Origin: Cellulomonas dongxiuzhuiae
Lineage (GTDB): Bacteria > Actinomycetota > Actinomycetes > Actinomycetales > Cellulomonadaceae
Length of the DNA stretch: 64,000 bases
Reading direction: 5' to 3'
Assembly: GCF_018623035.1 (NCBI RefSeq)
Contig: NZ_CP076023.1
Span: forward strand, 3,844,001-3,908,000
This document shows, one piece after another, positions 29,113 through 48,626 of this stretch. Each line of letters opens with the position of its first letter. Position 1 is the stretch's first letter. The position numbers and the translations under genes were made by a program. The notes under the pieces are model-generated. The model searched no databases. It saw only the letters and a list, made by a program, of their open reading frames with translations, and had not been told where the DNA came from.

Positions 29113-30171
29113 TCAGAGCCAGCGGCGCCGCTTGAAGACCCGGTAGAGGCCGAAGCCCATCACGACCATGGCGGCGACGGCCAGCGGGTAGCCCAGCCGC
29201 CAGTCGAGCTCGGGCATGTGCGTGAAGTTCATGCCGTAGATCGTGCCGACGAGCGTGGGGGCGAAGAGGATGGCCGCCCACGAGGAGATCTTCTTGACCT
29301 CCTCGTTCTGCGCCAGGCCCGTCTCGGAGAGCCGCCGGGTCTCCTCGTTCTGCACCAGGCTCGCCTCGGACAGCCGGCGCATCTCCTCGTTCTGCGCCTG
29401 GGTGACGAGGGTGGAGTGCACGGTGAGGGCGTTCTCCAGCAGCACCTGGAAGGAGTCGGCGCGGTCGCTGATGCGCAGCGCGTGGTCCAGGACGTCGCGC
29501 ATGCGGCGCTGCAGCTCGACGTCGACCCGGTACTTGTCGGCGCCGCGCAGCAGGCCGTCGAGGATGTCGCGCAGCGGTCCGGTGGCGCGCTGGAACGCGA
29601 TCACCTCGCGGAGCAGCTCGTAGATGCGCCGGGACACCGCGGGGTCGCCGCCGAAGAGCTGGTCCTGGATCTCGTCGATGTCGTTCTCGAGGCCGGCGAC
29701 GACGGGCGCGTACCCGTCGACGACCTCGTCGCACACGGCGTACAGGACCGCCTCGGGTCCCAGCGCGAGGAGCTCGGGCGCGGCCTCGAGCCGGCGTCGC
29801 ACGGCGCCGAGGTCGGGGTTCGTCGCGTGTCGGACCGTCACGACGAACTCCGGCCCGATGAACAGGTGGACCTCGCCGAACTCCACCTGCTCCTCGGCGT
29901 CGAGGTACCAGGCCGGCCGCAGGACGACGAACAGCGTCTCCCCGTAGCGCTCGATCTTGGCGCGCTGGTGCCCCTTGAGCGCGTCCTCGACCGCGAGCGG
30001 GTGCAGGTCGAACTCGGCGGCCAGCGCGTGGATCTCGTCCGCGTCGGGCCGGTAGAGCCCGATCCACGCCATCCCGCTGTGGTCCCGCAGCTGCTCGAAC
30101 GTCTCCTCGAGCGTGACCGGGGTCAGCGTCCGTCGACCCTCGACGTAGATCCCGTTGTCGACGAGCGTCAT
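29113..30171 (-). CDS. corA: CorA-family magnesium/cobalt transporter
   Basis: A 352-residue divalent cation channel. A cytoplasmic alpha/beta funnel domain (1-255) is followed by two C-terminal transmembrane helices joined by the conserved loop GMNFTHMPEL (GMN motif) and a basic tail RVFKRRRWL. The stalk helix before TM1 carries three copies of a 14-residue unit (QNEEMRRLSEASLV, QNEETRRLSETGLA, QNEEVKKIS), encoded by a 42-bp DNA repeat; ordinary members have one such unit. The ATG at 30171 overlaps the stop of the DUF1990 gene, making this the third gene of the yndJ-like operon. Confidence 0.9.
   Translation of the reverse strand: MTLVDNGIYVEGRRTLTPVTLEETFEQLRDHSGMAWIGLYRPDADEIHALAAEFDLHPLAVEDALKGHQRAKIERYGETLFVVLRPAWYLDAEEQVEFGEVHLFIGPEFVVTVRHATNPDLGAVRRRLEAAPELLALGPEAVLYAVCDEVVDGYAPVVAGLENDIDEIQDQLFGGDPAVSRRIYELLREVIAFQRATGPLRDILDGLLRGADKYRVDVELQRRMRDVLDHALRISDRADSFQVLLENALTVHSTLVTQAQNEEMRRLSEASLVQNEETRRLSETGLAQNEEVKKISSWAAILFAPTLVGTIYGMNFTHMPELDWRLGYPLAVAAMVVMGFGLYRVFKRRRWL
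29299..29395 (-). repeat. 42-bp tandem repeat inside corA
   Basis: The 13-mer CTCCTCGTTCTGC recurs at 29299, 29341 and 29383, exactly 42 bases apart. It marks two extra copies of a 14-residue heptad-like unit in the CorA stalk helix. The copies differ at several wobble positions, so the duplication is not very recent. Confidence 0.85.
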
Positions 30172-30719
30172 GCCGTCCCCACCCTTCGCTGCCGTGCCCG
30201 GTGCAGCCGACGGGCTGCGCGGGCGAGCATACGGACGTAGAGCCTCTGGCCCAGCGGCACGAGTGGCCCGAGCAACCGCACGCCCGGCCACGCCGGGTGG
30301 CTATACGCCTCGACGTCGAGCCAGACGTCACCGTCGCACAGCACCACGCGGAACGCCTCCTCGCCGGCGAACGGGTGGCCGCGGAGCGTGCCGTACCCGA
30401 AGCCCTCGTCGTCCGCCCACACCACGCGGCAGGGGGCGCGCAGCGCGACCGGGCCCACCCCGAGGAGCGTCACGACCCGCCGGCCGGGTGCCGCGGCACC
30501 GTCGGCTCGCACCCGCACGCCCGCGGTGCGGTGCACCCGCCAGGCGCAGACGTCGTCCGCGAGTGCCGCGCGGGCCGCCTCGTCACCGCCGCGCACGACG
30601 CGGTGGCGCACGCGCAGCACGCGGTCGCCGGGCGGCACGCCCGCCCGGCTCCACGGCGCGCCGGCACGCTCCCGGGTCGCCCCGACGGGCGCGTACGTCA
30701 GGTCGTCGTCCACGCTCAC
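30168..30719 (-). CDS. DUF1990 family protein
   Basis: A 183-residue soluble protein matching DUF1990 (UPF0548): N-terminal LTYAPVGATRE, central VVTLLGVGPVALRAPCRVVW, and the signature GFGYGTLRGHPFAGEEAFRVVL with VWLDVEAYSHPAWPGVRLLGPLVPLGQRLYVRML, here broken into parts. The function is unknown; it is often beside or fused to YndJ-like membrane proteins, as here. The GTG start at 30719 overlaps the stop of the upstream gene (GTGA), and its own stop overlaps the corA start (ATGA). Confidence 0.85.
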   Translation of the reverse strand: MSVDDDLTYAPVGATRERAGAPWSRAGVPPGDRVLRVRHRVVRGGDEAARAALADDVCAWRVHRTAGVRVRADGAAAPGRRVVTLLGVGPVALRAPCRVVWADDEGFGYGTLRGHPFAGEEAFRVVLCDGDVWLDVEAYSHPAWPGVRLLGPLVPLGQRLYVRMLARAARRLHRARQRRVGTA

Positions 30720-31660
30720 CACTCTCCCGTCCCGGTCCGTCGTGCGGGCACCGGTGCGGCGACGCCGACGCGCGGGGCCGAACGCAGCCGCAGGGAGACG
30801 AGCGAGCCGAGGACGACGGCCAGGGCGTTGAGCGCGCCGTGCGTCGCGACCATCCACGACAGGTCCGGGTGCGGGACGTCGACGACCCCGCCGACCGCCC
30901 ACCACAGCGCCAGCAGCATCGCGACCCCGCTGCCCGCCACGGCGGTCGCCGCCCACGCGCCGGCCGCACGGGAGCCGCCTCCCCGCCCGGCTGCGCGCGC
31001 CGCGCGCCACGCGGCCGTCGTGGCGCACCAGATGCCGCCCGTGAGCACGACGGTCCCGACCAGCTCCGCCTCCTGCGACACGAGATAGCCGACGAGCACC
31101 GCCGCCACGCCGAGCGTCACACCGGCGGCGCCGGCGCGGGCGAGCCGGCTGCCACCGCCGGCCTCGGCGCGCACGGCCAGGCCCGCGGCGAGGCACGCCC
31201 CGAAGCCGGCGAAGAGCATGTGCGGCACCGTGAGCAGCAGGATGTCCCCGTCGAAACCGAGCACCGACGCACCCGCGCGGTCGGCGACGAGCGCGAGGGC
31301 CCCGACGGTCGTGACGCCCAGCGCGACGGTGACGGCGACGTCGGACACACCCCGGCGGTGGGTCCGGGGTGCGGTCCACGCGCACCCGGCTGCGAGGAGC
31401 AGCACGACGGTGGCGACGGCGAACGGCACCGCCGCCCCCACCGCGGCGGGACCGCGCGGGAGCAGCAGCGCGAGCGCGGCGGCCGCACCGACGAGCGGCC
31501 AGCCCGGCGACCTCGGACGGGGCACCCGGACCGCGCCTGCGGCGTCGAGCAGGCGCAGGCCCAGCGGCAGCACGACGACGGCCCCGAGGGCGACCGCCGC
31601 CTGGACCCCCGCGAGCGCTGCGGGGGCGAGCTGGTGGTCGACCACGGGCGTCGATGTCAT
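30716..31660 (-). CDS. YndJ-like multi-pass membrane protein
   Basis: A 314-residue integral membrane protein with about eight or nine hydrophobic segments. Conserved polar positions include HMLFAGFGACLAAGLAV (His in helix), SQEAELVGTVVLTGGIWCATTAAW and DLSWMVATHGALNALAV, which match YndJ-like proteins of Bacillus and actinobacteria. The function is unknown. It is the first gene of a three-gene operon (YndJ-like, DUF1990, CorA). The start ATG is 10 bases from a perfect 38-bp palindrome, and there is no ribosome site, so the mRNA may be leaderless. Confidence 0.75.
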   Translation of the reverse strand: MTSTPVVDHQLAPAALAGVQAAVALGAVVVLPLGLRLLDAAGAVRVPRPRSPGWPLVGAAAALALLLPRGPAAVGAAVPFAVATVVLLLAAGCAWTAPRTHRRGVSDVAVTVALGVTTVGALALVADRAGASVLGFDGDILLLTVPHMLFAGFGACLAAGLAVRAEAGGGSRLARAGAAGVTLGVAAVLVGYLVSQEAELVGTVVLTGGIWCATTAAWRAARAAGRGGGSRAAGAWAATAVAGSGVAMLLALWWAVGGVVDVPHPDLSWMVATHGALNALAVVLGSLVSLRLRSAPRVGVAAPVPARRTGTGEW

Positions 31661-31669
31661 GGTGCCATT

Positions 31670-31707
31670 GAACACACTCAGTTGAACATGTTCAACTGAG
31701 TGTGTTC
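31670..31707. promoter_or_regulatory. Perfect 38-bp palindrome at the promoter of the YndJ-like operon
   Basis: Each half is GAACACACTCAGTTGAACA, so the palindrome also contains the pentamer GAACA twice per half-site (direct repeat with 9-base spacer). On the minus strand it covers a plausible -35 (TTGAAC), 17-base spacer and -10 (TTCAAT) that would start the transcript at or very near the ATG. Best read as an operator for a dimeric or tetrameric repressor; the regulator is not nearby. Confidence 0.7.
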
Positions 31708-31819
31708 GCCCAGGGGCCTCGGAACGGCGCGCACCCGCGCCGCCCGCGCTCGCAGCCGACCGCGCTCGGTGCCGCGCTTCCCTCCGCGCCCGCACGGATG
31801 TCGGACCACGACGCGAAAC

Positions 31820-33347
<1,528 letters not shown>

Positions 33348-47823: not shown

Positions 47824-48626
47824 GAGCGGTCTCCACGCCAACGCAGGGCGAACTTCTCGAGAGGCCGGAGGACGAGGTACTCCGAGCCGAGCAGCAGGAC
47901 GATGAACGTGATGAGCCACAGGACGAGCTCGTCGATGAGGAAGCGGTCGAAGGCCTGCGTGAACCGGTGCCCCACGCCGCTGTTGACCGCGAAGATCTCC
48001 GCGAGGACGACGACGCGCCAGGCGTGGGCGTACTCGTTGCGCACCGAGGACATCGCGTAGGGCACGAGGTGCGGGAGCAGCACGTGGCGGACCGAGCGCA
48101 CCGTCCCGAACCGGTAGACCGACGCCATGTCGGCGAGCTGGTGGCCCATCGCGGCGAGGCCCTGACGCAGGCTGATCGCGACGAACGGGAAGCAGGCGAC
48201 GGCGACGACGAGGAAGACCCCGGCCTCCGAGCGCTTGAACACCATGAGCGCGAGCAGCGCGACCAGCACGCTCGGCAGCCCGAGGGCCAGGTCGACGTAA
48301 CGACTCACCACGCGCGCCCAGAACCCGCCGCGGACGATCACCCACGCCGCCACGGCCCCGAGGGCGACCGCGGTGGCCAGAGCCAGGACCACGCGGACGG
48401 CGCTCGCCCCGATGTCGCCCCAGATGCCGGACGCCAGGAAGGCGGGGTAGGCGGCGAGGGTCTCACCGATCGGCGGGATGAACCTCGTGCGCTCGCTCCC
48501 CCACCACCACAGCACCGCGAACGCGGCCAGCCCGAGTGCACCGGCCACCGCGGTGGTGGGGTGCCGGCCGGCACCCCACCACCGCGGCCGCGGCCCTGCC
48601 TCGAGGACCGCTGCCGGGGAGGTCAC
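47820..48626 (-). CDS. ABC transporter permease
   Basis: A 268-residue permease with six hydrophobic segments and the EAA-type loop MGHQLADMASVYRFGTVRSVRHVLLPHLVPYAMSS (seen in parts). The GTG overlaps the stop of the substrate-binding protein gene (GTGA). It differs from the other permease in sequence, so the importer is heterodimeric. Confidence 0.88.
   Translation of the reverse strand: MTSPAAVLEAGPRPRWWGAGRHPTTAVAGALGLAAFAVLWWWGSERTRFIPPIGETLAAYPAFLASGIWGDIGASAVRVVLALATAVALGAVAAWVIVRGGFWARVVSRYVDLALGLPSVLVALLALMVFKRSEAGVFLVVAVACFPFVAISLRQGLAAMGHQLADMASVYRFGTVRSVRHVLLPHLVPYAMSSVRNEYAHAWRVVVLAEIFAVNSGVGHRFTQAFDRFLIDELVLWLITFIVLLLGSEYLVLRPLEKFALRWRGDRS

Follow-up and report, generated by a model that had tools for sequence, protein, structure and literature searches.

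Upstream of a YndJ-like membrane protein gene in Cellulomonas dongxiuzhuiae lies a perfect palindrome of 38 bp, which very probably serves as the compound operator of a repressor of the TetR family (TetR_N plus TetR_C_23). This repressor would act in trans, its gene lying near 1.177 Mb of the same chromosome. The conserved, functional unit of this operator appears to be a 14-bp element, TTGAAC-N2-GTTCAA, and not the long palindrome, which was seen in the source genome only. Comparison of genomes points towards a small, apparently undescribed TetR regulon, in which the same few membrane-protein genes are linked to this element across many actinobacteria of several families.

Within the window (the whole 64-kb stretch of DNA that was analysed), the palindrome occupies positions 31670-31707. 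Its two 19-nt arms (31670-31688 and 31689-31707) show 100% complementarity, join without a spacer and each hold two copies of GAACA, just as the earlier note had described. That note had also considered such symmetry very unlikely to arise by chance, and the expected number of zero-gap perfect palindromes with arms of at least 19 is indeed 1.1e-5 per 64 kb, or 7e-4 per genome, at the composition of the window. The next longest palindromes in the window have arms of 9, barring a perfect GC-rich palindrome of 40 bp at 48548-48587 (CCGCGGTGGTGGGGTGCCGGCCGGCACCCCACCACCGCGG), which is longer than the one studied here and is perhaps a terminator. The genome search that had been suggested returned the central 26 bp as a single copy in the 3.98-Mb genome, even allowing 3 mismatches; a REP or dispersed-repeat palindrome, for which many copies are needed, was rejected on this ground. 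Another inverted repeat, AT-rich, lies upstream of a GH10 xylanase gene at 31821-31836 (TTGAACGTTTAGTTCG), and its spacing, GAAC-N5-GTTC, differs from that of the operator. The features discussed below are as follows.

31670..31707, no strand assigned: proposed compound operator (the perfect 38-bp palindrome), comprising modules A, B and C less the outer two bases on either side
31696..31709, minus strand: module A, degenerate upstream module GCGAACACACTCAG, with 5 mismatches; completes the perfect palindrome
31682..31695, minus strand: module B, TTGAACATGTTCAA, an exact copy of the operator core that opens with the proposed -35 hexamer
31668..31681, minus strand: module C, degenerate operator CTGAGTGTGTTCAA, mismatched at 3 of the 12 fixed positions and overlapping the proposed -10
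31667..31695, minus strand: putative promoter TTGAAC-N17-TTCAAT, proposed from its sequence and the same geometry in relatives
30716..31660, minus strand: YndJ-like membrane protein gene (P0001, 30719-31660), the proposed controlled gene; PF14158, E 7e-67
30168..30719, minus strand: DUF1990 gene; PF09348, GTGA overlap with YndJ at 30719-30716
29113..30171, minus strand: CorA-like transporter gene; PF01544, ATGA overlap with DUF1990 at 30171-30168
G000:C1:3909351-3909788 (L063:5352-5789), minus strand: gene encoding a small membrane protein of three helices, with no Pfam family assigned; its promoter holds two exact operators

On the minus strand, the palindrome resolves into three abutting 14-mers, GCGAACACACTCAG, TTGAACATGTTCAA and CTGAGTGTGTTCAA, followed by TGGCACC-ATG, and a gap of 9 bp separates its end from the YndJ ATG (31660-31658). 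The placement of a TTGAAC -35 (31695-31690) and a TTCAAT -10 (31672-31667) relative to this ATG is as previously described, with a 17-bp spacer between the hexamers; the -10 is weak, and the promoter is regarded as putative. The predicted transcript begins close to the A of the ATG and would be leaderless. The same geometry recurs elsewhere. Promoters of YndJ and TetR genes in Cellulomonas contain two abutting modules with TTGAAC-N17-TTCAAY running through them and the ATG mostly 7-8 bp further on. In promoters of the small membrane-protein gene, a conserved hexamer resembling a -10 comes ~16-18 bp after the TTGAAC of a first site (TAGCGT in Cellulomonas, CATACT ahead of TetR in Arthrobacter, and TACGCT in Micromonosporaceae), and a second site lies at the expected start.

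Exact TTGAAC-RY-GTTCAA cores occur three times in the source genome: one lies within the palindrome, and the other two, spaced 37 bp apart, lie 1.8 kb past the end of the window in front of the small membrane-protein gene. Two cores with one mismatch each abut at 1,177,092 and 1,177,106, and the operon behind this double operator pairs a TetR-family gene with one for a small membrane protein. The TetR gene (G000:C1:1177657-1178316) lies beside nucS and ATP-synthase genes, and its product carries a TetR_N domain (PF00440, E 6e-18, above the cut-off) and a TetR_C_23 domain (PF17931, E 2e-20). A search of the source genome for further regulon members gave 15 sites with two mismatches, all inside coding sequences. 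The small membrane protein encoded beyond the window's end, whose structure model is of low confidence (pLDDT 59), appears to be encoded by a third member of the regulon, kept next to TetR in many genomes of the class. A different TetR gene, of the TetR_C_11 type (L063:4730-5293), adjoins the small membrane-protein gene in the source genome and C. avistercoris only, and has its own upstream inverted repeat containing TCTCATAGA.

Within the genus, a scan of 81 genomes with the inner 20 bp of the palindrome matched 19 (reversed control 0), and the part common to the matches was TTGAAC-RY-GTTCAA. This exact core is present in 28 of the 81 genomes, again with no match for the reversed control. TetR was found in 27 of the 28 genomes with the core and in 3 of the 53 without it (Fisher P 5e-17), leaving one genome with the core alone and 50 with neither. 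The lone core (L163:5147, in G009) lies near the start of a gene for a 310-aa membrane protein that is followed by a GntR-like gene, and may reflect chance or another regulator. Nineteen other Cellulomonas genomes have the TetR gene directly behind the operator, with YndJ and DUF1990, sometimes fused, coming next; where the surroundings are in view, these cassettes sit downstream of nucS and ATP-synthase genes. TetR and YndJ-DUF1990 are apart in six genomes, including the source genome and C. avistercoris, and in these the dispersed YndJ-DUF1990 often adjoins a GH10 xylanase gene. The operator has been kept at both loci although YndJ-DUF1990 has moved away from TetR, and control is therefore probably exerted in trans. 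The earlier observation that no regulator gene is adjacent thus describes the source genome correctly but fails for most relatives.

An operator lies at the promoter of the YndJ or TetR-YndJ operon in all 25 assessable Cellulomonas genomes, a count that excludes a 26th (G002), truncated by a contig end. The earlier note had proposed looking for the palindrome upstream of orthologous operons; in its 38-bp form it is not conserved, whereas the 14-bp module is present in every one of these 25 genomes. Upstream of the TetR operon, the core or a one-mismatch version of it was found at 29 of 30 Cellulomonas TetR loci. The small membrane-protein gene occurs in 10 genomes, all with TetR, and each of its promoters carries two cores or near-cores at a spacing of 34-37 bp. 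Some variation in layout was also seen. Two genomes (G038 and G047) differ in arrangement, and the draft genome G070 has two TetR-YndJ-DUF1990 cassettes on separate contigs (L079 and L080), each with an operator, which may represent duplication or assembly contamination. At L104 (G012) an in-frame TGA interrupts the YndJ match, the upstream sites are spaced 15 bp apart versus 14, and a further GAACACGTTCG lies beyond them.

Relatives of this TetR were located by a scan of named genomes in Cellulosimicrobium, Arthrobacter/Paenarthrobacter, Actinoplanes, Micromonospora, Dactylosporangium, Phytohabitans and others. The exact core was present within the fetched 4.7-8.7 kb at 47 of 57 TetR loci (L193-L249), which were taken as lying outside Cellulomonas, although one of them (L236) is from Cellulomonas endophytica. 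Eight control palindromes of the same design gave no match in the same 476 kb, and the neighbours at these loci were again YndJ-DUF1990 or the small membrane protein. Exact-pattern operator scans found no core near the Actinomadura TetR relatives inspected. The strongest evidence comes from a blind test in which 394 genomes of the class were scanned, because this search relied on the DNA pattern only, namely two exact cores 30-46 bp apart. It yielded 44 pairs in 35 genomes (reversed control 0), and in 29 of 29 fetched loci outside the source genome the pairs directly adjoin a TetR, small membrane-protein or YndJ-DUF1990 gene. Control of the YndJ operon by an operator, as first suggested, is well supported by these comparisons, and the regulator then called unknown can now be named as a TetR_C_23-type protein of the TetR family, encoded in trans.

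It is very improbable that another regulator (a different TetR, a MarR or a LexA-like protein) binds the operator and that the TetR link reflects genomic neighbourhood only. LexA-type boxes have the spacing GAAC-N4-GTTC, which does not fit the N2 found at every site, and an SOS box was rejected accordingly. Related half-sites are used by other regulators, since the MarR protein SCO3205 recognises TTnAAnnnTCAA (PMC3737563), and the unrelated TetR_C_11 gene described above adjoins a candidate target. However, the TetR_C_11 gene is absent beside other small membrane-protein loci, and the TetR_C_23 gene is the only one to co-occur with the site across the genus and the class, including in genomes where the genes are dispersed. 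The site could also be thought to control the divergent GH10 xylanase gene in place of the YndJ operon, as it sits between the two at ~215 bp from the xylanase start, and the xylanase gene adjoins YndJ in several relatives as well. We consider this extremely unlikely: the site lies only 9 bp from the YndJ ATG, and it accompanies the genes for TetR, YndJ and the small membrane protein even in those genomes and families that have no xylanase gene nearby. Finally, the proposal that the palindrome works as a structure (an RNA hairpin, attenuator or cruciform) and not as a protein site can draw on its folding as RNA to -30.6 kcal/mol (z -7.0), but is almost certainly wrong because the symmetry axis is not conserved, while the paired sites 30-45 bp apart elsewhere offer no such single hairpin and a transcript starting at the ATG would leave the palindrome untranscribed.

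In C. avistercoris and G059 the hairpin is centred on the junction of two modules, whereas in the window it is centred on the middle of a module; the double operators of the relatives thus have another axis, and the long palindrome itself is therefore not a conserved feature. The sister species C. avistercoris has two modules only, TTGAACATGTTCAG-TTGAGCGTGTTCAA, of which TTGAGCGTGTTCAA is the counterpart of module C; module A is missing and the sequence upstream is unrelated. At the same place the window has GAACACACTCAG, which matches, base for base, the reverse complement of the window's own downstream arm, CTGAGTGTGTTC. Given that just two modules are present in the sister species, the extra upstream module appears to be a recent change in the source lineage and, on this one comparison, was probably templated by the downstream arm through quasipalindrome correction. 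Templated repair of this kind would create a perfect palindrome in one step; such mutations are known from E. coli and yeast (PMC7202029, PMC3820800).

Under the TetR reading, dimers of the repressor would bind the central exact module and also, probably cooperatively, the abutting degenerate modules. Bound TetR would cover the -35 and the -10/start region, excluding RNA polymerase, until a small-molecule ligand releases it. Binding, cooperativity and release are here modelled on the TetR family in general. TetR proteins can act as activators too. As the operators overlap the -35 and start regions, repression is likely, and a block to RNA polymerase at the predicted site-promoter overlaps is the natural reading.

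The operon of YndJ, DUF1990 and CorA genes noted earlier is real as sequence, each gene having its Pfam match, and the 4-bp overlaps make a single transcript likely. DUF1990 is fused to YndJ in several relatives. Among the inspected loci, CorA follows DUF1990 only in the source genome and C. avistercoris, with the same ATGA overlap in both, and it appears to be a local addition to the operon; a general tie to Mg/Co transport therefore does not follow, and the link once drawn to such transport is weak. Searches of the literature for YndJ regulation, the role of YndJ/DUF1990, SCO4850 and the operator letters found nothing relevant. A fused YndJ-DUF1990 relative gave a confident structure model (pLDDT 87.5), in which the DUF1990 part is structurally similar to PYL and Bet v 1 proteins (Foldseek E 4e-4, VIA Z ~13), suggesting a START/Bet v 1-like fold (helix-grip, SRPBCC). 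The membrane part comes near CcoN of cbb3 oxidase (VIA Z 14.8, rmsd 3.9, 245 residues), a score to be read with the caution that helical bundles give high scores by chance. YndJ (P0001) has three invariant histidines in its membrane domain (H147, H264 and H274), a possible cofactor site for haem or metal. Descent of YndJ alongside CcoN or NnrS was rejected, the likeness being one of fold, with Pfam and PDB sequence searches giving no support; NnrS is too rare in the class for a profile to be built. A broader proposal, that a TetR sensor induces CcoN-like YndJ, a START-like DUF1990 that binds a ligand and the small membrane protein as a widespread actinobacterial module for stress or membrane lipids, and so a new membrane pathway, is speculative and rather unlikely.

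The candidate system shares several properties with those of TetR, QacR and KstR: an N-terminal TetR HTH with a helical C-terminal domain, and palindromic operators that overlap the -35/-10 or start at both the regulator's own operon and its targets. It differs from them in the form of its operators, with TTGAAC-N2-GTTCAA occurring either in 14-bp modules that abut or in pairs at a spacing of 30-45 bp, and in its targets, here YndJ, DUF1990 and a small membrane protein that no Pfam family covers. The half-site letters of the SCO3205 operator are superficially similar, but that system uses a winged-helix MarR protein, another spacing and other target genes (PMC3737563). PDB 3c07, a solved structure, is a putative TetR-family regulator of the same family; P0002 matches it at 7e-43 over its length, compared with 3e-100 for the TetR encoded beside a small membrane-protein gene in G262. 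The literature searched gave no operator, regulon or function for 3c07.

These findings would provide the TetR subfamily of the 3c07 structure group with an operator and a three-gene regulon, and would join YndJ, DUF1990 and a small membrane protein that lacks annotation in one conserved response shared by several actinobacterial families. They offer an example of a regulator and its target that have become separated in the genome with the operator retained at both places, and of a long 'perfect' palindrome that appears to be a lineage-specific elaboration of a 14-bp site. Through the ligand that would release the repressor, the function of YndJ and DUF1990 may become directly approachable.
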